Origin: Salinibacter sp. 10B
GTDB lineage: Bacteria; Bacteroidota; Rhodothermia; Rhodothermales; Salinibacteraceae
Assembly (NCBI RefSeq): GCF_002954405.1
Contig: NZ_MQWC01000004.1
Span: 2,531,909 to 2,595,908, forward strand
Reading direction: 5' to 3'
DNA: 64,000 nucleotides
Shown here: positions 5,729-64,000 of the stretch, piece by piece
How positions within the stretch are numbered: position 1 is the stretch's first letter
Layout of the letters: every line of letters begins with the position of its first letter
Notes under the pieces: generated by a model
Seen by the model: only the letters and a program-made list of their open reading frames with translations
The model's database searches: none
Told to the model about the DNA's origin: nothing
Translations under genes and position numbers: made by a program

Positions 5729-6823
5729 TCACACGTTGAACCGAAACTCCATCACGTCCCCGTCCTCCACGACGTAGTCTTTACCCTCGGTTCGCAGGAG
5801 CCCGGCGTCCCGAGCGGCCTTTTCGGAGCCGGCCTCGTCGAAGTCGGAGAAGTGAATCGTCTCGGCCTTGATGAAGCCCTCCTCGAAGTCCGTGTGCACC
5901 TGACCGGCGGCCTGCGGGGCACGGGTGCCCTTCCGGATCGTCCAGGCGTAGGCGCCCTTCTCGTCCGCCGTAAAGAAGGTGATGAGATCCAGCACGTCAT
6001 ATGCGGCGTGGATGAGCCGTTCGAGCCCGGAGCGCTCCAGTCCGAGGTCGTCCAAAAAGAACTGCCGCTCCTCCGGCTCCAGCTCGGCAATCTGCGCCTC
6101 CGCCTCCGCCGAAATCACAACGACCTGCGTGTTCTCCTCCTCCGCTCGTGCCCGAAGCGCATCCACGTGCGCATTGCCTTCTGAGATGTCGTCCTCCGCC
6201 ACATTCGCCACGTAGAGCACCGGCTTGTCGGTGAGGAGGAAGAGCTCGTCCACCAGCGCCTGATTGTCGTTCGATATGTCGAATGAACGCACCCAGTTGC
6301 CATTGCTCAGGTGCTCGTGGAGCCGGTGAAACAGAGGCAGGTTCTCCGCCGCCTCTTTGTCACCCTTCTTCGCTGCCGGCTCCAGCTTGTCGATGCGCTT
6401 CTCGACCGTCTCCAGATCCTTCAGCAAGAGCTCGGTATTGATCGTCTCCACGTCCCGGACCGGATCGACCGACCCGTCCACGTGCGCGACGCTGTCGTCC
6501 TCAAAGCAACGCACGACATGGATGATGGCGTCGACCTCGCGGATGTTGGCCAGAAACTGGTTGCCCAATCCTTCGCCCTCGGACGCGCCCTCCACGAGCC
6601 CGGCGATGTCCACAAACTCGATGGTGGTGGGCACCGCCTCAGGCGACCCGGCTAATTCCTTTACCCGCTCCAGCCGGTCGTCGGGGACGGGCACGACGCC
6701 GACGTTCGCATCCACCGTACAGAAGGGATAGTTCTCGGCGTCGACGCCGGCGTTGCTCAGGGCGTTAAAGATGGTAGACTTGCCAACATTGGGCAGGCCG
6801 ACGAGGCCGCATTGGAGAGACAT
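5729..6823 (-). CDS. ychF: YchF/OLA1-family ATPase, copy 1
   Basis: 364 residues, the family's usual length (363). The start at 6821-6823 gives the canonical N-terminus MSLQCGLVGLPNVGKST with an intact P-loop (G1). DIAGLVEGASEGEGLGNQFL is the G3 and following switch region. The usual NKxD (G4) is replaced by NVAE, the substitution that gives YchF/OLA1 ATP rather than GTP preference. The C-terminus has the TGS domain, ending in the conserved DGDVMEFRFNV. The protein binds ribosomes and affects translation and stress responses. It is followed upstream by a second, clearly homologous ychF (7104-8207). Confidence 0.96.
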   Translation of the reverse strand: MSLQCGLVGLPNVGKSTIFNALSNAGVDAENYPFCTVDANVGVVPVPDDRLERVKELAGSPEAVPTTIEFVDIAGLVEGASEGEGLGNQFLANIREVDAIIHVVRCFEDDSVAHVDGSVDPVRDVETINTELLLKDLETVEKRIDKLEPAAKKGDKEAAENLPLFHRLHEHLSNGNWVRSFDISNDNQALVDELFLLTDKPVLYVANVAEDDISEGNAHVDALRARAEEENTQVVVISAEAEAQIAELEPEERQFFLDDLGLERSGLERLIHAAYDVLDLITFFTADEKGAYAWTIRKGTRAPQAAGQVHTDFEEGFIKAETIHFSDFDEAGSEKAARDAGLLRTEGKDYVVEDGDVMEFRFNV

Positions 6824-7103
6824 GGCACCCTGGTGAACGCTCGTGAGACGATGACGAAACCTCCCCCTCAACAACTCTTCCCGGACACCCACTTATCGGA
6901 CAATTTCAGGAAGGCCCCGAAAAATCCTTGTCGAGACCGCTTAACTTTCCCTCGGGATCACTACCCAGAGTCAAAGCTGCCGAAACAGCATCACCTGTTT
7001 CCTTACTTTTCTCCGTCGCTCCTGGACATCTCAGGAGTGACGGTTGGAGAGGATTTTTCGGTGCCCACAGCTGTGAAACTGTACACTGTCCGGCTGCTTG
7101 CCC

Positions 7104-8207
7104 TCACACGTTGAACCGAAAAAACATGACGTCGCCGTCGTCGACGACGTAGTCTTTGCCTTCGGCCCGCATCTCTCCCGCTTCCCGCGCCGCCGCTTCG
7201 GAGCCAAGCCGATCGTAGTCGGAAAAATCAACCGTTTCCGCCCGAATGAACCCCTTCTCAAAGTCGGAGTGGATCGTGCCGCCGGCCTCCGGGGCGCGCG
7301 TGCCTTTTTCGATGGTCCAGGCCCGGGCCTCCGACGGGCCAGCCGTAAAGAAGGTAATCAATCCCAGTTGGTCGTACGCTGCCCGAATCAGGCGTTCAAG
7401 TCCGGGTTGCTCCAAACCAAGATCGTCGAGAAAGAGTTGCCGCTCGTCGGGGTCGTCGAACGCTACGATCTGCGACTCCACGTCGGCCGAGATCACAACC
7501 GTCTCGGCCTCTTCTTCGTCGGCAACCTCGCGGACCTGCTCCACGTGGTCGTTCCCCTCCGGGAGATCGCTCTCGGCCACGTTGGCGGCATAGAGCACCG
7601 GTTTGTCCGTGAGCAGAAACAGCTCGTCGATGAGGGAGCGGTCGACTCCATTCGCGGGAAGCTCGAAGGTACGGGCCCAATGGCCGTCCGACAGGTGATC
7701 GTGCAGAGCTTCAAACACCGTCAGCTTCTCCTGAGCCTCCTGGTCTCCACTGTTCGCAGCTTTCTGGTGGGCCTCCACGCGCTTCGCCACCGTCTCCAGA
7801 TCCTTCAGCAGGAGCTCGGTGTTGATCACGTCGATGTCCCGCGCCGGGTCGACCGAACCGGAGACGTGCCCCACGTTGTCGTCCTCAAAGCAGCGCACGA
7901 CATGCACGATGAGGTCTACCTCGCGGATGTTGCCGAGAAACTGGTTCCCCAGTCCTTCGCCCTCGGACGCGCCTTCCACAAGCCCCGCGATGTCCACGAA
8001 CTCGATGGTAGCGGGCGTGGTGTCATCGGCATCCGCCAGCTCGGCGAGGCGGTAGAGGCGGTCGTCCGGGACCGGCACGACGCCCACGTTGGGTTCGATG
8101 GTGCAAAAGGGGTAGTTCTCGGAGTCCGCGCCGGCGTCGCTCAACGCGTTGAAGATGGTCGATTTTCCGACGTTGGGCAGGCCGACGAGGCCGCACTGCA
8201 GGGACAT
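7104..8207 (-). CDS. ychF: YchF/OLA1-family ATPase, copy 2 (tandem paralogue)
   Basis: 367 residues, co-linear with copy 1 over its full length, with the same N-terminus (MSLQCGLVGLPNVGKST), G3 block and C-terminal TGS end (DGDVMFFRFNV). The two are closely related but not recent duplicates: substitutions are scattered, especially around residues 140-185 and 225-250. Both retain intact P-loops and the NVAE G4 variant, so neither looks like a pseudogene. The copies lie in the same direction, separated by 280 bp without a gene. One ychF per genome is usual. Confidence 0.96.
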   Translation of the reverse strand: MSLQCGLVGLPNVGKSTIFNALSDAGADSENYPFCTIEPNVGVVPVPDDRLYRLAELADADDTTPATIEFVDIAGLVEGASEGEGLGNQFLGNIREVDLIVHVVRCFEDDNVGHVSGSVDPARDIDVINTELLLKDLETVAKRVEAHQKAANSGDQEAQEKLTVFEALHDHLSDGHWARTFELPANGVDRSLIDELFLLTDKPVLYAANVAESDLPEGNDHVEQVREVADEEEAETVVISADVESQIVAFDDPDERQLFLDDLGLEQPGLERLIRAAYDQLGLITFFTAGPSEARAWTIEKGTRAPEAGGTIHSDFEKGFIRAETVDFSDYDRLGSEAAAREAGEMRAEGKDYVVDDGDVMFFRFNV

Positions 8208-10049: not shown

Positions 10050-12542
10050 GTGCGTTCCTCCTCCGCCCTTCATTGGTCGGCTTATCCGGCGCTCGTGCCG
10101 GCGGGCGCATTTGCTGGCGGGATTCTTCTCGACGCCCTTGCGGGGAGGTGGCCCCCATTCTTCTGGAGGGGCTGCGTCGGGCTCGGTGTGCTTCTCTTTG
10201 CACTCATGCACTGGTGGGGAAAGCAGCGGATGGTCACGTTAGCGCCACTGGGGCGGGTCGTTGCCATTGTGCTGTTGGGTCTCGGGGCCGGAGGTACCTC
10301 CTATACCATCTACACGACTTCGTCCCCCCGGGCGCTGGGTCCAGTGGTGGAGAAGATGCCCGATCGCGCCCTCCCGATTTTTGGAACAGTCGTCGATGCC
10401 CCTGAGCGGTCGGAGTTGTCCACACGTTTTACACTGGTTGTGGATGAGATTGCATGGGCAGACTCCCTCATAAAAGCAGACGGAAGGGTCCGCGTGACTC
10501 TTCGACCGTCTCCGTGGGAAGCGAGCCCCAAGCCGTTTCCTCGGATTTATGAAGGGGATCGCCTTCGTCTCACGAGTATCATTCGCCCAGCGCCCGGACA
10601 ACGAAACCCAGGAGGATTCGACTATGGGGAGTACCTTGCGCGGCGCGGCGTCTGCTGCACGGCATATGTGGATCGGCCATCTCGTATTCGTCGACTCGAC
10701 CGAAGCTCTGCTCTGCTTACGAACGTCGTCGTTCGGACGCGTCAACACATCCGTCGGCAAATCCGCCGGTACGTGCCGAGCGCCGACGGACGTGCGGTAC
10801 TTCAAGCCCTCCTGCTGGGCGACCGGAGCCGTGTGACGGACGAGCAGCGGCAGCAGTTTGCGGAAACGGGGCTCATGCATCTGTTGGCTGTTTCAGGACT
10901 CCATGTGTTCCTGGTAGGCATGGTCCTGTACATTCTACTCCAGCCTCTTTTGATGCGGCTGCGGCTTCGCTGGCAGACTGTGGAGATCGGGCGAGCGGGA
11001 CTCACAGTCGTAGTGCTTTGTCTGTATATGCTACTGACGGGAATGCGGCCGTCGGTGGTACGCGCTGTCGTCATGTCTACGTTGTTTATCGGCGGTGTTG
11101 TCTTTCAGCGATCCACTCATCCGTTGAACACGCTCGGCGTGGCGGCACTGGTGCTTCTCGCTGTTCGTCCCCCAGCGCTCTTCGACGCGGGATTTCAGCT
11201 CTCCATGGCGGCCGTCGCGGCAATTGTGACCATCGATCCTCGATTCAAGGAGTGGATTCCGTCGGAGTGGACGCAAACGGCCGCTGGGGACTGGCTTATT
11301 TCTACAATCACTGTATCCGCGGCGGCGACGATTGGGACGGCTCCCGTGCTCCTTTACCACTTCGGGTGGGTATCAGTCGCCGGCTTGCTTTTGAACGTGG
11401 CAGGCATTCCTTGCACGGGGCTCGCCCTATCGGCGGCCGTGATGATGACCGTGGTGGGCGAGTTGTGGTCCTTGGCCGGTGCTGCCTTTGGGAGTACTGC
11501 GGATCTGTTTGTTCGGGGGCTGTTGCTCATCTCTCACAGCGGGGCGACGTGGTTGTCGTGGGGCGGCCTCCGAATGGTAAATCCGAATCCGTGGGTGCTT
11601 GGAGCGCTCGTTTGTGGGTCGGGGGCTTTGGCTCAGTGGCCGCGCCCCCGTTACCGCTGGCGGTGCACCGTCTGTGCTCTTCTGATCGCAACGGCTGGGG
11701 TATGGGTAGGGCTGTTTGAGCCGGAGGCGGACCCCACACTCGATGTACTCTTCTTTGACGTAGGGCAGGGGGATGCTGCTCTAATTACGACTCCCGAGGA
11801 GCGTCGGATTCTGGTGGACACGGGTCCCCGGTCTCCCTACGGCGGGAGTGCAGCTGCGTCCTCAATTCTCCCGTTTTTGCGTCGCCGAGGTATTCACCGG
11901 TTGGACCTCGTGGTTGTTACGCACCCCGATGAGGATCACCTCGGCGGACTTCCTGCCATTTTGCAGGAGGTCGACGTTGGGAAGGTAATCCACAGTGGGC
12001 AGAAGACGGATACCGATCTCTTTCGCGAGACGCGCCGGATGCTTTCTCGCTTGGACGTGCCATCGTCCTCTGTGCAACGTGGAGATATGCTTTCGGCGGG
12101 ACCGTCGGTTGGAATTGAAGTACTTGGGCCACCGGTCCATCCCGAGCGTTGGGGAGTCGAGAGTGAAAATAGCCGGTCGGTTGTTCTCCGTGTAGGATTC
12201 GGTCGTACCGATGTGCTTCTGCCGGGGGACATTGAGGCAGCTGCCGAGCAAGCCCTTGTGCGGATGTACGAGAGGAGTCTCGGAAGCCGAGTTGTAAAAC
12301 TGCCCCACCACGGATCCGAGACGAGTAGTACTTCTGCTTTCGTGCACGCCTGTGTGGATTCGAGTCGGAAGACACACGCCGTTGTCAGTGTTGGGCGTGA
12401 GAACCGATTTGGGATGCCTAGTAGAGATGTATTGGCGCGATGGCGAAGGGAAGGAGCTGAGATTCACAGCACCGCACGCTCGGGGGCCGTTTGGCTCCGA
12501 TCGGATGGGGTGCAGGTCTGGACAGTTCCCTGGCGGGAGTGA
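10050..12542 (+). CDS. comEC: ComEC/Rec2-family DNA uptake channel with C-terminal metallo-beta-lactamase domain
   Basis: 830 residues from a GTG start. The order is typical of full-length ComEC: N-terminal membrane segments, a soluble OB-like (DUF4131) region at about 90-220, the polytopic competence domain (signature GLMHLLAVSGLHVFLVG at about 270-290, further helices to about 560), and a C-terminal beta-lactamase-fold domain beginning LDVLFFDVGQGDAALI with the metal motif THPDEDHLGG (about 630). It forms the inner-membrane channel for single-stranded DNA in natural transformation. Its codon use is less GC3-rich than that of its neighbours. It points away from nusB and towards the candidate oriC. 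Confidence 0.94.
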   Translation: MRSSSALHWSAYPALVPAGAFAGGILLDALAGRWPPFFWRGCVGLGVLLFALMHWWGKQRMVTLAPLGRVVAIVLLGLGAGGTSYTIYTTSSPRALGPVVEKMPDRALPIFGTVVDAPERSELSTRFTLVVDEIAWADSLIKADGRVRVTLRPSPWEASPKPFPRIYEGDRLRLTSIIRPAPGQRNPGGFDYGEYLARRGVCCTAYVDRPSRIRRLDRSSALLTNVVVRTRQHIRRQIRRYVPSADGRAVLQALLLGDRSRVTDEQRQQFAETGLMHLLAVSGLHVFLVGMVLYILLQPLLMRLRLRWQTVEIGRAGLTVVVLCLYMLLTGMRPSVVRAVVMSTLFIGGVVFQRSTHPLNTLGVAALVLLAVRPPALFDAGFQLSMAAVAAIVTIDPRFKEWIPSEWTQTAAGDWLISTITVSAAATIGTAPVLLYHFGWVSVAGLLLNVAGIPCTGLALSAAVMMTVVGELWSLAGAAFGSTADLFVRGLLLISHSGATWLSWGGLRMVNPNPWVLGALVCGSGALAQWPRPRYRWRCTVCALLIATAGVWVGLFEPEADPTLDVLFFDVGQGDAALITTPEERRILVDTGPRSPYGGSAAASSILPFLRRRGIHRLDLVVVTHPDEDHLGGLPAILQEVDVGKVIHSGQKTDTDLFRETRRMLSRLDVPSSSVQRGDMLSAGPSVGIEVLGPPVHPERWGVESENSRSVVLRVGFGRTDVLLPGDIEAAAEQALVRMYERSLGSRVVKLPHHGSETSSTSAFVHACVDSSRKTHAVVSVGRENRFGMPSRDVLARWRREGAEIHSTARSGAVWLRSDGVQVWTVPWRE

Positions 12543-12732
12543 ACAAAGAGGAGGGCAAGCATCCCATCAACATGGACTGCTGGTGATCCCCCGTTGTGGT
12601 ACTCTAGCACTCCTAGCGGTGTTATTCCTCTACAGGAATATCCTACTTCTTGGTTTGGTACACGTCGATGTACCAGTACAAAGCTCTTACTGAGCGGTAT
12701 ATCGATTTGAGCTGCGCCGTATTCCTATCGAG

Positions 12733-13190
12733 GAAAGTTATCCACACGCCCTACTGTGAATAAAGCACTCTGGGATTTTTAAAAAGATGTGGTTGTTGTT
12801 GTTAGGCGTGTGGAAATGTGGACAAGTAAACGACCCACAACCGCGATCGAGAGATGTGGACAGCATCGCGCTTCATTCACGGAGTTATCCACAAGAAACT
12901 GGATTCAAGAGTCGGTATACGGCGTAAATCGACGATTTTCGGGGTGTTTTCCACCTTTCCACAGCTATCCACAGTAAATCACGGTGTTCTCGTGCATAGT
13001 TGTGCACACTCATCCACAGTGTTGAGAACGCGGTGATGGGTGTGGACGGACCCCAAAGTTATGCACCGGCGCAGACGATCAAAATTCGTCGTTTTGGTTA
13101 TCCAGATGTTATGGACCACTTATCCACCGGTTATCCACAACATTGTGGAGAAGTCCACAGCCCCCTGACGAGGGCTGCGGACCATCCACA
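12733..13190. other. oriC: Candidate chromosomal replication origin (oriC) with DnaA-box cluster
   Basis: The comEC-pgi gap (828 bp) has no gene but many DnaA boxes. Three are perfect TTATCCACA sites, at 12738-12746, 12885-12893 and 13131-13139 on the plus strand. One-mismatch boxes include 12817-12825 (minus), 12965-12973, 13010-13018, 13098-13106, 13120-13128 and 13144-13152 (minus). Several more have two mismatches. An AT-rich stretch with ATTTTTAAAAA and GTTGTTGTTGTT lies at about 12757-12803, close to the first boxes, and could be the unwinding element. Neighbouring genes on the left are mostly minus and on the right mostly plus, as expected at an origin. dnaA is not adjacent. Confidence 0.85.
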
Positions 13191-13265
13191 AACGGTACAT
13201 CTGCGTTGTTAGAAAAGGGGGGCGAGGGACGCAGGAGACGACCTGGTCGTAGACGTGAAAACAGT

Positions 13266-13300
13266 CCGGCCCCTCGTTTACCCTGCAGGAGAGGGGCCGG
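13266..13300 (-). terminator. Probable pgi terminator
   Basis: A perfect 10-bp inverted repeat, CCGGCCCCTC / GAGGGGCCGG, with a 15-nt loop. On the minus strand it is followed by ACTGTTTTC, so it can terminate pgi transcription 71 bp after the stop codon. It also separates pgi from the DnaA-box cluster. Confidence 0.6.
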
Positions 13301-13370
13301 CGTGCCGGGCGTGGACTTGTGTTGGAGTCGCTGGCGGGATACCATTCATTTTTTTGGTCGAAGAGCGAGT

Positions 13371-14696
13371 TCACCGGTCGAGTCGGTCGTACATCTCACT
13401 CTTGTAATCTTCCACGCCGGGCTGATTGAAGGGGTTGACGTCGAGCAGGTACCCGCTAACCGCCACGGCGTGCTCGAAGAAGTAGAGGAGTTCTCCGATC
13501 GGTTGGGGAGCTAGGGCGTCGAACCAGATGGTGACGTTTGGGACGCCCCCGTTGGCGTGTGCCTGGGCCGTTCCGTCGTACGCGGCGCGGGTGACGTCGC
13601 CCATCGTTTTTCCGGCGACGTAGTTGAGTCCGTCCACGTCGTCCTCTGTTTCAGGAATGGAGAGCGACGCCGGATCCTTCTTCGGCATCAGGAACGTCTC
13701 CATCAAATTGCGCTGCCCCTGCTGCATGTACTGGCCGATCGAGTGGAGGTCGGTGGTGTACTGGGCAACGGTGGGAAAGAGGCCGGTGTGCTCTTTGCCC
13801 TCGCTCTCCCCGAAGAGTTGTTGCCACCACCGCCCGATATTCCGGAGCTTTGGTTCGAACACCGCGAGGGCTTCTACGTCGTAGTCGTCGTTCAGGAGCA
13901 GATACCGAAGAGCAGCGTATCGGAGGGCATCGTGCTCGGCGTCGGCACTGATCTCTTCACAAGCCGACACGGCCCCATAAAAGAAGGAATGGATGTCGAT
14001 CCCGGCCGCGGCAATGGGAAGCAGGCCGACGGGCGTAAGCACTGAGAACCGTCCCCCGACGTCGTCGGGAATGACGTACTTCTTGTAGAAGTCGTTGGCC
14101 TCGTGGAGGGCGTTGAGGGCGCCCTGTTCCTTGTCGGTTGTGATGATGATCCGGTCGGAGGGGGCGTCGAACTGGTCGTGCATCCATGCACGCACCACTC
14201 GGAAGGAAAGGGCAGTTTCGAGGGTCGTGCCACTCTTGGAGATGACATTTACAAAGACGGATTTTCCGTCCAGGTCGGAAAGGAGCTCTCGAAGGTAGGC
14301 CCCGCTCGTGTGATGGCCGGCAAAGCGCACCTCAGGGGGCTGGGAGGGGTGCATGCTCTGGCCCTCGGGGGTATCGGGCGAAGGGGGGTCGGGTTGGCGG
14401 GCGGACAGGTACGGCGTGAGGGCGCTAATTACTGCCCGGGCACCGAGGTAGGAACCGCCGATGCCGAGACACAGCAGCACGTCGGCGTCGCGCCGGAGCC
14501 GGTGGGCGGTGGCTTCGATGTCTTGCAGAAGGGCATCATCCGGGTCTAGGAGAAGATCGCGCCATCCCAGCATGTGGCTGCCCTTTCCTGTTTTGTTCAG
14601 AACCGCTTCGTGGGCCTCTTCGATCTGAGGCTTAAGGTCGGCGAGTGCGCCGTCGTCGAGGAACGACTGTGCGTGTTGAGTGTCGAGGCTGACCAT
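13371..14696 (-). CDS. pgi: Glucose-6-phosphate isomerase
   Basis: 441 residues, the short form found in Firmicutes and Bacteroidota (about 440-450). It contains LLCLGIGGSYLGARAV (sugar-phosphate binding), SKSGTTLETALSFRVVR (phosphate-binding SKSGTT), the second PGI signature around FSVLTPVGLLPIAAAGID, and a C-terminal region rich in conserved aromatic residues. It interconverts glucose-6-phosphate and fructose-6-phosphate in the cytoplasm. It lies on the side of the candidate origin where most other genes are on the plus strand. Confidence 0.96.
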   Translation of the reverse strand: MVSLDTQHAQSFLDDGALADLKPQIEEAHEAVLNKTGKGSHMLGWRDLLLDPDDALLQDIEATAHRLRRDADVLLCLGIGGSYLGARAVISALTPYLSARQPDPPSPDTPEGQSMHPSQPPEVRFAGHHTSGAYLRELLSDLDGKSVFVNVISKSGTTLETALSFRVVRAWMHDQFDAPSDRIIITTDKEQGALNALHEANDFYKKYVIPDDVGGRFSVLTPVGLLPIAAAGIDIHSFFYGAVSACEEISADAEHDALRYAALRYLLLNDDYDVEALAVFEPKLRNIGRWWQQLFGESEGKEHTGLFPTVAQYTTDLHSIGQYMQQGQRNLMETFLMPKKDPASLSIPETEDDVDGLNYVAGKTMGDVTRAAYDGTAQAHANGGVPNVTIWFDALAPQPIGELLYFFEHAVAVSGYLLDVNPFNQPGVEDYKSEMYDRLDR

Positions 14697-29892: not shown

Positions 29893-30687
29893 ATGCGGGC
29901 TTTTTCCTTTGTATTGCGCACGGTGGCATGCATCGGCGTGGCGCTGCTACTGTACGGATGCTCCGATGCTACGACTCCTACGGGCCCTGAATCGGGCGAT
30001 GACGAAGGAGGAACGGCGTCGTTCAACAGTGAAGCGGCTCCGGGGGCGTCTGCTCAGGCTTTTCTGGACAATGCCTCGTTTTCGGTACTCAACGTAGAGG
30101 TCGACTACATGGAGGGCTACGAGCCGACCGAAGGAGGCCTCGACAGCCTCAAGACAGCGCTGGCGGACCACCTGAGCAAATCCAGCATCACCATTGAGGC
30201 CCCTACGCGCGTCCCGGCGGCGGGACAGGACAGCTACACCGCCGATGAGGTTCGGGGGCTGGAAGAAGAGCACCGAGACCACTACACGCAGGCGCAGGAC
30301 GATGCTCTCTGGGCGTACATCCTCATTCTCGACGGTACGTTCGACGAAGGAAATGTGGTCGGGATCGCCTACTACAACACGTCCACGGCCTTCTTTGGCA
30401 AGACGATCCGGGAGATTTCGGGCGGGCTGACCCAGCCCTCGCGAGAGAAGGTGGAGGCCACGGTGTTTCGGCACGAATTCGGCCACATCCTGGGACTGGT
30501 GGACAATGGCACGCCGATGCAGGAAGGACACCGAGACGACGGCCACGGTCCGCACTGCACAAACGAGCAGTGTGTGATGTACTATGCTATCGAGACGACC
30601 GACTACTTCGCAAACATCTTCGAGGGCACGGTGCCCGGGTTCGAGCAGTTCTGCACGGCGGACATGGCAGCGCAGGATGGGAAGTAA
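29893..30687 (+). CDS. Metzincin-like zinc metalloprotease lipoprotein
   Basis: 264 residues from ATG 29893. It has a lipoprotein signal (FSFVLRTVACIGVALLLYGC), an acidic linker, then a protease domain. The active-site motif is HEFGHILGLVD (HExxHxxGxxD), and CVMYYAIE downstream is a plausible Met-turn. An Asp as third zinc ligand is the arrangement of snapalysin-type metzincins; most others use His. A His/Asp/Cys-rich segment (GHRDDGHGPHC) lies between the two motifs. Probably anchored outside the inner membrane or on the outer membrane. The substrate is unknown. Confidence 0.82.
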   Translation: MRAFSFVLRTVACIGVALLLYGCSDATTPTGPESGDDEGGTASFNSEAAPGASAQAFLDNASFSVLNVEVDYMEGYEPTEGGLDSLKTALADHLSKSSITIEAPTRVPAAGQDSYTADEVRGLEEEHRDHYTQAQDDALWAYILILDGTFDEGNVVGIAYYNTSTAFFGKTIREISGGLTQPSREKVEATVFRHEFGHILGLVDNGTPMQEGHRDDGHGPHCTNEQCVMYYAIETTDYFANIFEGTVPGFEQFCTADMAAQDGK

Positions 30688-30784
30688 ACTCGAATGAGGG
30701 GCATTCTGAGCGGAAGGGGGGACGCTGCCGCTGGAGGCAAGGGGGACGCAGCCCTCCCTTCCCGAGGTCGTAATCGGGCGCGGA

Positions 30785-33700
30785 TCAGCGGGCGGGAGTC
30801 TCCACGCTGTCCCGGAGCATTTTCTGAACGGCCGTCGCCCCGTCTTCCAGAAAGTAGATCTTCCGGTCCTCGAAAGCTGCCCGGGTGTCGAGGGCCTGCT
30901 TTTCCTTGAGGACGTGGAAGTTGGTGACCGACGCGATGAAGCTGTGCAACCGAATGTCGTCCCGGCTCGCCCGAGCATTGAGGGTCTCCTGGTAGTCCTC
31001 GATGTTCTGACAAAACTGGACTTTCGGCTCCACATCGATATTCCCGACGCCGACGTCCAGGCCCTTCGGGTCGACGAAGATGATGTGCTGGAGGGGAGCG
31101 TCCAGCAGCCACAGAATGAAGTCGGGGAAGAATCGTCCGCCATTCTGCATCTGAAAGCCGACGCCCGTTCCCCGCGTCTGATTGCGCAAGACGTAGAGCT
31201 TTCGGTTCTCGCCCATAAACTCGCGTCCCTGCGCGCTTCCGAGAAACGAGCGGAAGTGCTCAATAAATTGTGTTTCCCCCGCATTCAGGGCTGGAGGACT
31301 GTACTGAACCGGCTCGTCCTGCGTGACGAGCGGATGATAGAGGTGCTTGTCGAAGTAGACCCGATCTGGTTTCCCACTCTCCTCCGTGTACAGGTGTTCG
31401 TCGCCCCTAAAGAGGATTTCTTCCTGATCGCCGGACTCCACCCTTTCCAGTCGATCAAGAAGCTCGTTCAAGAACGCGTCAGCGGACTCTTCTACTCGGG
31501 CCTCAACGACCTCAATCAAGTTGTCGTCCTCTTCGTTGAGCTCCTCGTATTGCAGAGTTTCGCGTTTCCACTCCTGCTTTTGGCTGGAGTAGTACTCTGT
31601 AATGTACGTTCGCAGGATGCGGAGGACAATGGACTCAATGCGGCCCAACTCATCGAACCGAGTGCATTCGAGCATCTCTACGGGACAGTACAGGTCGTAC
31701 TGCTCCGTTTCGATCACCCGTTTTAGGACGTCTTGCCCGAACGTGAGGTTCGTATACCCTTCCTTCTCCCGGTACCGCCAGAGGGTTCGGTAGATGCGAG
31801 GCCAGTCGAGCAATGCAATGAGGTCGGAGCCGATCGTGCGGCGCTCTTCGGTGTCCGACGAGGTCCCGGCTGGGGCTCCATCGCTCAGATCGCTGGTCCC
31901 GTTCGTGGAGGAGAGGACCTCGATCTTTCGGGTCAAGTCGATCTCCGGCGTGATGTCGCTTGAATCGACCACCTCCGGTGTGAGTGTGAGGTCCTCCACG
32001 TCCTCGAACGATTCCGTCTCGCTCGGGCGGAGAAGCTGAAGGCCGGCGCCACTGAACCGGTCGTCGACCTGCGTTTCAAACCGGACGATCTCTCGATCGT
32101 CCGTCTCAATCCCTTCATCTGCGAGGTAGTCGCGGAAGTCCGCCATGTAGTCGGCCCGGACCCCGAAAATGTTTAGCGTTTCGAGGGTCGGAAGGTGGCG
32201 CGGGTGCGACCCTTCCAGGACACTAGAGCGCTTCAAGCTCCGATCCTTCCCGAGAAGACGGACGCCCCGTCCAAACAGCTGGATAATCTGCGGGCCTTCG
32301 CCCCGCCCGATGTTCATGAGGCCCATCGTGGAGACGCGCCAGCTGCTCCACCCTTCGATAAACTTCTTCGCGCCTAAAAGGACATTGATGTCCGACCGGC
32401 TCTGGTTGATGCGCTTGAAGAGCGACCCTTCAAACTCCGATTCTTCGATCCCGATCTTCGGGAATTCCTCTTCGGTCAGATTGAGGAAGCCCCGCTTGTT
32501 GCCCACGTCAATGACCCCGAAGAATTGATCGGAATCCCCCGCCCGGAGCCCGATCTCTCCGTCGGTATTTTTGAGGTCAGAAAGGCGAAGGCCCGTGCCA
32601 CCGGACGCGTGAAACAGCCGATCGCGGAGATCTCCTAGAATGTCCTCCGCGCTGCACCCCGTCGAACGAAGAACGTCAAATTCGTCGGCGAACAGATCTT
32701 GCCCGGCAATTTCCAGCGTACCCTCGTCCGACAGCAAGTCTCGGACCGCACGGGTGGCCCAGTCGGTGTCCGTAAGCACACGGTTGAGGAATGCGACGAG
32801 ACGCTGAATGTCCGTCACGCTCCGGCGATCGTTCGTGCTCAGGTCCGAGACATTTCGTCCGCCCGTGACGCTGTGTCCGATAAACATGAGAAGGGGTTTC
32901 CGGAGGTTGTACTCCTCGCGGAGGCGCCGCTCATCCCGGTTGAACACCACCTGCTGTTCGTAAAATGTGAGCAGGTTGGCCAACAGATACCGATTGGTCA
33001 GGTCGTCGTCCTCTTCCAATGCCTCATCGGCGTTGGTGTCGAGGTTGAGGATGTTGTAGTCCTTTCCGTATCCGTCTTCGTAGAAGCGCTGATACGAGTA
33101 GTCAAACAGGATCGACGTGCCGTATTCGTCCTTCACGGAGGCGGGCGTCGATCCGCTGACGGCCTGTCCGAACGTGGCGCTGTACTCGAAGGTGAAGCCG
33201 CCGTCTGCGAGTCGTGACCGGAGGTCCCGCCACGTCCCGGCGGTTGAGCTCGCGCCCTTGTGCCCCTCGTCGACGAACACCAGGTTGTTGCCCTCGAAAG
33301 CGTCGACCTCCACCCGCACGCCCTCGTCGGTCTTCTCGTTCACGAGCTTGGAGATCTCAAGGACCTTCACGTGTTCCGGCGGTACGGATTGGCCTTCCTC
33401 TACGAGGTCCAGGTAGTACCGGCAGCCGATGCCGCTCCGGCGCAGCTCGGCCATGTGCTGGTCCGTGAGTCCCTCGTTCGGCGTCACGAGAAGGATGTGG
33501 TCGATCGCGTCGCCAAAGTGGTGCCGATACTGATAGTAGTGCAGGTGCATGAGGAGCGTCTTTCCGCTCCCAGTGGCCATCCAGAGGGCAATCTTGTTGA
33601 GCTGGCCGGGGTCCACCGTCGGGTACGTGATGTACGTCCGGTCCTCATTCTGACGGGCGGCAAACTCGTTGATCGATGCGGCCAGGCCCTTCGCATCGTG

Positions 33701-58649: not shown

Positions 58650-59190
58650 AGGCGGTTGTGATTCCTGATGTAAGAGAACGTTTTGGATCCGAGTGAGCAG
58701 ACTTCGCTCGGCGTGCTTCTATCTCTCGTGGAGGGCGTGGGGGGGAGAGGGCGAGTGGGCGAAGGGGGGGACGATTCCTCTTTTGCTGGATTCTGTGCGC
58801 CCTATCGCGCACCCTCATTTTTTCTCCCTTTCCCAAGACGCCCAAACACCGAAAGGCCGACGCCCCGATCAGGGTCGGGAACGGCGGCTCTGGAACGAGT
58901 CGTACCGGCGGGAGGGACGGATCACTGTCAGCCCCTTTACGAACCCCCGGAAACGGAAGATTCGCCCTGCATGCGCTCTTCGTGGGCCTTTTGGAAGAGT
59001 CGCAGATGTTTCACGTGAAACCCCGTTCGCTGTCTGGCAGGACTGCCATTTTGAGAGGGATGCGGCTCCGCGCTGGTTTTGGGAAATGCTGCAGGAACGT
59101 GTGGAAGAGAGGGGAAGGGCGAGGGGAGGAGCAATCCTTGAGGGTCGAGGGTTGAAGTATGGCGCTTCTGTCCACAATGCAGAGTCCTAG
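58650..59190. other. Intergenic region mfd / methyltransferase
   Basis: 541 bp, divergent. G-rich 7-bp periodic sequence at about 58727-58782 (GTGGAGG GCGTGGG GGGGAGA GGGCGAG ...) resembles the arms of repeat G. It contains the first parS site (59007-59022). No gene is seen. Confidence 0.4.
59007..59022. promoter_or_regulatory. parS site 1 (ParB-binding)
   Basis: TGTTTCACGTGAAACC matches the bacterial parS consensus TGTTNCACGTGAAACA at 15 of 16 positions. It lies in the mfd-methyltransferase gap. Confidence 0.85.
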
Positions 59191-59823
59191 ATGCCTGATT
59201 CTTCTATTCGAGACGCCTACGGCCAGTGGGCATCTCAGTATGATCGTGACGAGAACGCCACCCGCGACCTGAACGCAGAGGTACTACGCGAACAGTCATT
59301 TCTCCATCCCGACGACGACGTGTTGGAGATCGGCTGCGGGACGGGGTTCAACACCCAGTGGCTTGCGTCGTGCGCCGGGCGGGTGGTGGCGGTAGACTTC
59401 TCCGAGGCCATGCTGGAGACGGCGCGGACACGTCTCGAAGAAACGGACGTCGCGCTCTGGCGGCTGGACGTCACGGAGCCCTGGCCGTTTGACGGAGGGC
59501 AGTTCGATTGCGTTGTGTCCACGCTCGTCCTCGAACACGTGGAGCGGCTCGGTCCCATCTTTCGGGAGGCTCGACGCGTGCTTCGGAGCGGCGGACGGTT
59601 CTACCTCAGCGAGTTGCATCCGTATCGCCAGCTTGGGGGCGCGCAGGCGAACTTCGATCATGAGGCGTCCGGTGAGAACGTCACGATTGACGCGTTCACG
59701 CACCCGGTGTCGGAGTTTGTGAACGAGGGAGTGGGCGCTGGATTCACCGTGCGCGAAATGGGCGAGTGGTATGGAACGAACGACGATCTCCCACGACTGA
59801 TGACGATTCTCTTTGAGAAGTGA
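59191..59823 (+). CDS. Class I SAM-dependent methyltransferase
   Basis: 210 residues. Motif I VLEIGCGTGFNTQWL at about 46-60, acidic residue of motif II in VAVDFSEAML, motif post-I FDCVVSTLVLEHV and motif III-like VLRSGGRFYLSELHP. Type 11/25-like fold. The YrrT/UbiE-like architecture does not reveal the substrate. parS sites lie on both sides. Confidence 0.88.
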   Translation: MPDSSIRDAYGQWASQYDRDENATRDLNAEVLREQSFLHPDDDVLEIGCGTGFNTQWLASCAGRVVAVDFSEAMLETARTRLEETDVALWRLDVTEPWPFDGGQFDCVVSTLVLEHVERLGPIFREARRVLRSGGRFYLSELHPYRQLGGAQANFDHEASGENVTIDAFTHPVSEFVNEGVGAGFTVREMGEWYGTNDDLPRLMTILFEK

Positions 59824-59856
59824 TCGGGATCGGAGGCTCCGCGCAATAGCACCGAT

Positions 59857-59872
59857 TGTTTCACGTGGAACG
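59857..59872. promoter_or_regulatory. parS site 2
   Basis: TGTTTCACGTGGAACG; its reverse complement CGTTCCACGTGAAACA matches TGTTNCACGTGAAACA at 15 of 16 positions. It starts 34 bp after the methyltransferase stop. Confidence 0.8.
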
Positions 59873-59914
59873 TCGTTTCGGGGGATGACAGTCGAGTGGG
59901 GAGGGGAGGGTCGT

Positions 59915-59930
59915 TGTTCCACGTGAAACA
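59915..59930. promoter_or_regulatory. parS site 3 (perfect)
   Basis: TGTTCCACGTGAAACA is a perfect match to the parS consensus TGTTNCACGTGAAACA. Confidence 0.92.
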
Positions 59931-59970
59931 CTGCGACCCCCGATAGAGCGCCGCTGAGGGTGGTGTTGGA

Positions 59971-59986
59971 TGTTTCACGTGGAACG
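59971..59986. promoter_or_regulatory. parS site 4
   Basis: TGTTTCACGTGGAACG, identical to site 2 (15 of 16 in reverse complement). Sites 2, 3 and 4 have start-to-start spacings of 58 and 56 bp. Confidence 0.8.
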
Positions 59987-62251: not shown

Positions 62252-64000
62252 TCAAGAGGAACGGCCGCGGAACCGGTCCCAGTTTGGGAGGCCGCGCCCC
62301 CAGACGAAGAGGGACGCCCCGACAAGCAGTCCGATCATAAACAGAAGGGCCCAGGCCCAGAGCGGCAGGAAGGCCTTGGAGTCAAGGGGAAGCGCTGCGG
62401 GAGAGCCGTAAAGGACGGGCGGGGCCCAGAAGAAGGGGCTTGCCTTCTGCGGGTGCGCGTCCAGGTAGTCCAGTTGGGCCTTCTGCAGGGCCACGTCCTT
62501 CGGGTGTCCGTTCTGGAGGTAGTGATAAAATCCCTCCATGAGTTCCACGCTCGCCTCGTCGGCCACGGGCCAGAGCGTGGAGACGGTTGACTGCGCGCCC
62601 ATTGCCCGAAAGGCGTACTGGAGTCCCTCCATGCCTTCACCGCCTCGAAGTGTGCCTTTGGCGGTACTGCAGCCGCTCAAGACCACGAGCGGGATCCGGG
62701 TCTGCTGCTCCTGCAGTTCGTGCAGGAAGAGAACGCCGTCCGAGCCCGACGTATCCGCCTCTGCGCCGGGGGCGGTGTCGTCCGGGCGGAGGAGAATAGC
62801 GTTTTGAAGAGGCGAGGAGGCGTTCACGAACGCGTGGGAGGCCACGTGGAGAATGCCGGCCTGGCGGGCATCCCGGCAGAACGAGCGCTCCGTGGCGTTG
62901 TCGTTCAGGGCCAGGCGGGCGTCGGAGACCGAGCGTTTCAGGACATCGAGCTCTCGTTCAACGCCGGGAAGGGGCGGCAGGCGAACTGTGGAGTCCTGCA
63001 CGGCTTCGGGGAGAGCGGTCCGAAGGGCGGACGGGACGGTCTCGAGGGTGTCGAAGGTGGAGACTCCGTAGGCGGCCAGTTGCGGCTCGTAGGACGTCCA
63101 GTCGGTGGCCGACGTGTCCGGAGCGGTGACGAGCGACGGGGCCAGCTCCAGCGAGGTCGCCCGGTCGTGGACGAGGAACCGGGCCTTGGAGGGCGCAAAC
63201 CGGCCGCCGGGCATCGACGTCACGAGCATTGAAAACGGGAGGTGAAAGAGGGCGCCGTCCGGGATGATCGTCACGGGTCGGTCCTCGGGCAGATGGGAGG
63301 AGACCGGTGCGTAGACGGTGTTGTAGAGGCGATGGAGCGGACGAAGGTCAAAGTGGAAGGCATTTACGCGGTCCGGTTTTCCGCGTGCGCTGAACAGGGG
63401 AGACACGGATTTGGTGAGGGTGCGCACGGAGTCCTGCGTGAGGCCGGGGAGCGGGACGGTCCGGAGCGTGTCGGGCGTGAGGACGAACGCGGCCGAGCGG
63501 GGCGATCGGTCGTACACCGGCCACGGGTCGTCGACGAAGTACGCGACGAGGGCACGGTCCTGTCGGCGGAGCGTGGCGGCAATGGAGTCGAGGGACGGGC
63601 GGGTGGAGCGAGAGTCGAGCTGGAGCAGTTGCTGCCGGGCGGCCATGAGCTGTGCCTCCCGGTTTCGAAGCTGGGTCGTCTGCGTGTCGGGGCGAGCGTC
63701 CGTGCTGAGTTGATTGCGCACGGTGGTGAGCGCACGGGACAGGCTGTCCAGGCGAAGGCGGGCCGTCGGGGGAAGCTGTTCGGCCACGCGTGCCTGAGTC
63801 CGGAGGTCGCGGAGGTGGCGGGCGCGGGCATTGTCGAGGGCGACGAATGCCTCGCGGGTCTGATTCTGGGCAAGAAGGGTGCGCACCAGGCCACGGTGCA
63901 CGTTGCGCCACTCGGCAAAGGCCGTCATGGACCACTGCGAAGCCGTGAGGGACGTCCGGTACTCCTCAATAACCCCGATGCCACGCCGATAGTATTTTTC
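62252..64000 (-). CDS. CHAT-domain caspase-like protein, C-terminal part (truncated by window edge)
   Basis: The frame is open to the window end, so at least 582 residues are present and the N-terminus is missing. Helical TPR-like repeats occupy the first 90 or so visible residues (RGLVRTLLAQNQTREAFVAL, ARARHLRDLRTQARVAEQL). The CHAT domain has catalytic His in ILHVASHAFVN and Cys in VVLSGCSTAKGTLRGGEGM, followed by YAFRAMGAQSTVSTLWPVAD. A C-terminal membrane helix (WAWALLFMIGLLVGASLFVW) tethers it. CHAT proteases act in defence and signalling, but many are uncharacterised. murQ lies 64 bp downstream. Confidence 0.88.
   Translation of the reverse strand, partial: EKYYRRGIGVIEEYRTSLTASQWSMTAFAEWRNVHRGLVRTLLAQNQTREAFVALDNARARHLRDLRTQARVAEQLPPTARLRLDSLSRALTTVRNQLSTDARPDTQTTQLRNREAQLMAARQQLLQLDSRSTRPSLDSIAATLRRQDRALVAYFVDDPWPVYDRSPRSAAFVLTPDTLRTVPLPGLTQDSVRTLTKSVSPLFSARGKPDRVNAFHFDLRPLHRLYNTVYAPVSSHLPEDRPVTIIPDGALFHLPFSMLVTSMPGGRFAPSKARFLVHDRATSLELAPSLVTAPDTSATDWTSYEPQLAAYGVSTFDTLETVPSALRTALPEAVQDSTVRLPPLPGVERELDVLKRSVSDARLALNDNATERSFCRDARQAGILHVASHAFVNASSPLQNAILLRPDDTAPGAEADTSGSDGVLFLHELQEQQTRIPLVVLSGCSTAKGTLRGGEGMEGLQYAFRAMGAQSTVSTLWPVADEASVELMEGFYHYLQNGHPKDVALQKAQLDYLDAHPQKASPFFWAPPVLYGSPAALPLDSKAFLPLWAWALLFMIGLLVGASLFVWGRGLPNWDRFRGRSS

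Follow-up and report, generated by a model that had tools for sequence, protein, structure and literature searches.

Does this salt-loving bacterium of the Salinibacter type initiate replication of its chromosome next to dnaA, or in a gap between comEC and pgi where DnaA boxes accumulate? A preliminary description had proposed the gap as a candidate oriC away from dnaA. The analyzed stretch of DNA (the window, 64 kb) corresponds to positions 2531909-2595908 of C4, a contig of 4.32 Mb in a genome of 4.75 Mb. We concluded, with a probability of about 0.95, that window positions 12543-13370 are the chromosomal oriC and that its position next to comEC is the ancestral one for the order.

DnaA boxes in the comEC-pgi gap

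The gap is 828 bp long, holds no recognised gene and lies between convergent genes, whose identity as comEC and pgi was confirmed by family models. The genes and DnaA boxes are, in window coordinates:

10050-12542, plus strand: comEC, left neighbour and synteny marker (TIGR00361, 1.4e-87)
12543-13370, no strand: very probable oriC, the intergenic region that separates comEC from pgi (convergent genes); ten boxes of 0-1 mismatch, skew flip in the window, kept in relatives
12738-12746, plus strand: first perfect DnaA box TTATCCACA; position kept in relatives
12755-12763, minus strand: DnaA box TTATTCACA, 1 mismatch
12809-12817, minus strand: weak DnaA box ATTTCCACA, the inner of the two in the unwinding module; conserved in the alignment
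12817-12825, minus strand: DnaA box TTGTCCACA, 1 mismatch, the outer of the two in the unwinding module; several relatives have TTATCCACA there
12885-12893, plus strand: second perfect DnaA box TTATCCACA, 147 bp from the first; similar spacing in several relatives
12965-12973, plus strand: DnaA box CTATCCACA, 1 mismatch
13010-13018, plus strand: DnaA box TCATCCACA, 1 mismatch
13098-13106, plus strand: DnaA box TTATCCAGA, 1 mismatch; conserved as TTaTccaga
13120-13128, plus strand: DnaA box TTATCCACC, 1 mismatch
13131-13139, plus strand: third perfect DnaA box TTATCCACA; most relatives have an inverted box about 13 bp further
13144-13152, minus strand: DnaA box TTCTCCACA, 1 mismatch
13371-14696, minus strand: pgi (glucose-6-phosphate isomerase), right neighbour where present (NF010697, 1.6e-146)

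The three perfect boxes of the preliminary description were found at 12738, 12885 and 13131, all on the plus strand, and its count of at least six one-mismatch boxes plus weaker ones became seven with one mismatch and eight with two mismatches, the latter interspersed among the stronger boxes. Its statement that the box number is far above chance was borne out as well. Simulating the gap 20,000 times with its own dinucleotide composition gave a maximum of three boxes with 0-1 mismatch and a maximum of one perfect box, versus ten and three observed. Perfect boxes occur 15 times in the whole 4.75-Mb genome, with more than two close together at the comEC-pgi gap only. The scan for one-mismatch boxes covered about 1.3 Mb of the genome, and no other box cluster was found inside the 64-kb window. 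The claimed switch of gene orientation, minus on the left and plus on the right, fitted only loosely, because comEC and pgi themselves break the pattern.

GC skew and the position of the dnaA genes

Of 60 stretches of about 20 kb each sampled on C4, the 31 between 0.35 and 2.53 Mb were without exception negative in skew; the other 29, which run from the window past the end of the contig up to 0.28 Mb, were without exception positive. The sole switch from negative to positive falls in this window and the return switch at 0.28-0.35 Mb; provided that C4 is circular, the two switches divide it into arms of about 2.23 and 2.09 Mb. Over 96 contiguous kb surrounding the gap, the cumulative minimum lies at window position 8003, 4.7 kb left of the first box, an offset within gene-scale noise. 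The gap is located where an oriC is expected, at the skew minimum and arm switch, as was also found in the related genome G026. A GC-skew test had been proposed beforehand, with a minimum elsewhere, for example at dnaA, as the adverse outcome; it was run and the origin reading was not refuted, since the flip occurs inside the window. Two full-length dnaA genes are present:

C4:2391332-2392879: dnaA1, with dnaN beside it; 153 kb from oriC, inside the uniformly negative arm
C4:413845-415485: second dnaA, near the skew terminus

The proposed separation of oriC from dnaA was thus upheld. Both paralogues contain Walker A (GGVGLGKTH), the Walker B region and the box-recognition motif GGRDHSTVIHA. 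The second dnaA is likewise found near the terminus in G003 and G010, in G003 near the point opposite the origin.

Conservation of the site beside comEC

For comparison, pgi or comEC loci were drawn from 40 related genomes. A dense box cluster 3' of comEC was present in almost all members of family f1, with 5-19 boxes of 0-1 mismatch, and 3' of comEC also in families f8 and f11, while in family f3 the cluster lies beside pgi with comEC adjoining. Genomes without this type of pgi still have the cluster 3' of comEC, and G040 has a cluster, too. Box positions within the cluster are conserved among relatives. Four genomes of the same order (G033, G035, G036, G037) showed no cluster 3' of comEC.

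In the complete genome of the Rhodothermus type, G026, the cumulative skew minimum over 140 kb, at 31,160, fell within the comEC-pgi gap (30,456-31,801) and 31 kb from dnaA, which starts at position 25. For G003, which has dnaA at 0 and the cluster at about 13 kb, the minimum lay at 17.4 kb. The skew of G031 turns gradually over about 1.02-1.2 Mb; it is therefore ambiguous and discriminates poorly as an independent skew test. As dnaA lies only about 8 kb (G014), 13 kb (G003) and 31 kb (G026) from the cluster, it is dnaA that has become distant in the genome studied here. Judging from these gene orders, dnaA seems to have moved and the location next to comEC to have stayed the same. The site had been called unusual for an origin. 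It does lie away from dnaA, but the site itself is ordinary, being inherited in the order. Origins apart from dnaA are known from some species and share with this one a box cluster and a skew minimum away from dnaA; the difference lies in the marker, here comEC (and pgi), which is kept throughout much of the order.

The skew flip, the conserved cluster and the G026 minimum in the comEC-pgi gap together support the oriC reading. Position, skew, box array and conservation were established by computation, and the call is well supported for a purely computational case. The locus is a well-delimited addition to a known kind of oriC. It places the oriC of Salinibacter- and Rhodothermus-type bacteria at a conserved comEC site, where tools anchored on dnaA can misplace it. 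In the literature searched, we found no paper on a comEC-linked oriC in this group; DoriC may already predict such an origin.

A probable unwinding module and two inverted repeats

Between comEC and the tandem boxes at 12809-12825, further conserved features were observed:

12623-12640, no strand: inverted repeat TATTCC-n6-GGAATA, in the interval from comEC to the first box; in many family members
12657-12706, no strand: inverted repeat GGTACA-n6-TGTACC, then GGTATATC; from the alignment of 21 relatives
12775-12785, no strand: AT-rich ATTTTTAAAAA, which probably serves as DNA unwinding element; nearly all relatives are likewise AT-rich here
12792-12804, minus strand: triplet repeat (GTTGTTGTTGTTA on the plus strand) in the DnaA-trio position; aligned with three 3'-GAT-5' in G014, G021 and G031

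The preliminary description had also noted an AT-rich/GTTGTT element adjoining the first box, and both parts were recovered. The AT fraction at the 12775-12785 element is 0.87 in 15 bp, so that AT-rich DNA lies beside the boxes as in an oriC. Read on the minus strand, box TTGTCCACA comes first, then box ATTTCCACA, a 4-nt spacer, the triplets and the AT-rich stretch. The alignment shows this succession, from the tandem boxes across the short spacer and the triplets to the AT-rich DNA, to be conserved.

The basal unwinding system (BUS) consists of DnaA boxes and DnaA-trios, and the published rule asks for three or more 3'-NAN-5' trios no further than 16 bp from a DnaA box (PMC6669920, PMC8287927). 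Our module resembles it in having tandem DnaA boxes, a GC-containing spacer of 3-4 nt, a triplet repeat and AT-rich DNA in the same order. It differs in the triplets, which have diverged in this genome: a single GAT precedes triplets of the GTT type, a departure from the trio rule. At the aligned place G003, G014, G021 and G031 comply with the rule, the last three by three canonical 3'-GAT-5' trios. The same module with canonical GAT trios or GTT-type triplets, depending on the relative, offers a natural test of how strict the trio code is.

From this layout, DnaA would bind the array of strong and weak boxes at 12543-13370, and a DnaA filament would start at the tandem minus-strand boxes (12809-12825), grow over the adjoining triplet repeat and open the AT-rich stretch at 12775-12785. 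The helicase would then load at the opened stretch and two forks would depart, presumably starting synthesis. The GGTACA-n6-TGTACC repeat together with GGTATATC is a candidate site for a putative origin-binding protein. Both inverted repeats (12623-12706) are possibly sites of such a protein, or else a terminator.

Other explanations for the box cluster

Many bacteria have their origin at dnaA-dnaN, and the same might apply to dnaA1-dnaN here, with the comEC-pgi cluster merely titrating DnaA. One perfect and two one-mismatch boxes are indeed found upstream of dnaA1, but three DnaA boxes are typical of dnaA self-regulation. The skew, moreover, stays negative on both sides of dnaA1, over hundreds of kb to the left and rightward up to the window, flipping only there, and the G026 minimum sits at the cluster, 31 kb from dnaA. 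We consider an origin at dnaA1 very improbable on these grounds.

Slightly less probable still is a cluster that serves as a DnaA titration or reactivation site of the datA/DARS kind, while the true origin lies elsewhere within about 10 kb. Such an arrangement would agree with the distance of 4.7 kb between skew minimum and first box and with the existence of DnaA elements outside oriC in this genome (see below). However, those elements have another, fixed architecture, the window is devoid of any other box cluster, the comEC-pgi cluster includes the unwinding module, and in G026 the skew minimum matches the comEC-pgi gap to less than 1 kb. An oriC in the comEC-pgi gap therefore remained the preferred reading.

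A family of DnaA box pairs outside oriC

Outside the window, two perfect boxes 147-149 bp apart were detected at three other loci (C4:2035608, 2523644 and 2701657). Between the paired boxes lie AATAACRGA and, inverted, TCTGTTATTGGG; perfect CTGTTATTGGG occurs three times genome-wide, exactly at these loci. Using the right half of the element alone as query (GTTATTG-n33-41-TTATNCACA) in 41 genomes, 29 places were found in 20 of them, while the reversed control gave zero matches in the same 41 genomes. In nearly all of the 28 complete elements the middle motif is present and a left box lies 147-154 bp away, although the query contained neither of the two; exceptions were a left box at 141 bp in one and a weaker left box in two. 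A sequence model built from the elements detected 1-3 strong copies in nearly all family members and in two further families. In the layout, a DnaA box is separated by about 30 bp from ATAACRG, which is followed at about 57 bp by inverted CYGTTATTG; the second DnaA box comes 36 bp further on. Each of the two boxes frequently has a weaker one 4-5 nt behind it.

The elements are mostly origin-proximal, with distances to oriC of 21, 157 and 509 kb in the genome studied here; the corresponding values are 17.6 and 217 kb for G003 and about 18 and 195 kb for G010. One copy adjoins the same small gene here, in G005 and in G003. No obvious shared function was seen among the genes neighbouring the elements, and no known RNA families were found at the elements or at oriC. 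Extra copies of oriC were considered and rejected. BLAST and alignment revealed short motifs in common without the oriC layout, and the box pairs therefore constitute a separate family. The ATAACRG motif is absent from oriC here, with few matches in the oriC of relatives, at varying places. A mobile element was judged unlikely, as the motifs alone are conserved, the flanks differ and one copy is orthologous within the genus.

In E. coli, datA and DARS have kept both their protein sites and their distances from oriC (PMC4585315), and where they lie on the chromosome matters (PMC5010248). Like datA, DARS1 and DARS2 (PMC4585315, PMC5010248), the box-pair elements are non-coding and combine DnaA boxes with sites for another presumed protein; key sites are kept, spacers vary and distances from oriC are mostly limited. 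They also share the hallmark of several DnaA boxes at conserved spacing outside oriC. Unlike datA and DARS, they consist of two strong direct boxes 147-154 bp apart enclosing the inverted ATAACRG motif, which is conserved. No IHF or Fis sites, on which the activity of datA/DARS depends, were identified in them. What datA and DARS stimulate is ATP hydrolysis on DnaA or the exchange of its nucleotide. By analogy, a box-pair element may be a DARS/datA-like DnaA control site. Tentatively, and at somewhat below even odds, we propose that this apparently unreported element, with 1-3 copies per genome in the family, would switch or store DnaA in the manner of datA/DARS together with a putative ATAACRG-binding protein, the partners being the two DnaA paralogues, one of them encoded beside the terminus. 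The elements may represent an independent answer to the control of DnaA activity outside the gammaproteobacteria, and are a more novel lead than the oriC itself.

Further features of the window

At some distance from oriC, the following sites were observed:

59007-59986, no strand: four parS-like sites (59007, 59857, 59915 and 59971) with at most 2 mismatches, the only ones of the genome

They lie 46 kb from oriC and were counted in favour of the oriC reading; no parA or parB was recognised among the neighbouring proteins scanned. Near them, a CHAT-domain protein (caspase-like peptidase) of 558 aa is encoded at window 62252-63928 on the minus strand. In the left part of the window, two full-length ychF genes (redox-regulated ATPase) are adjacent to each other at 5729-6892 and 7104-8207, both on the minus strand.
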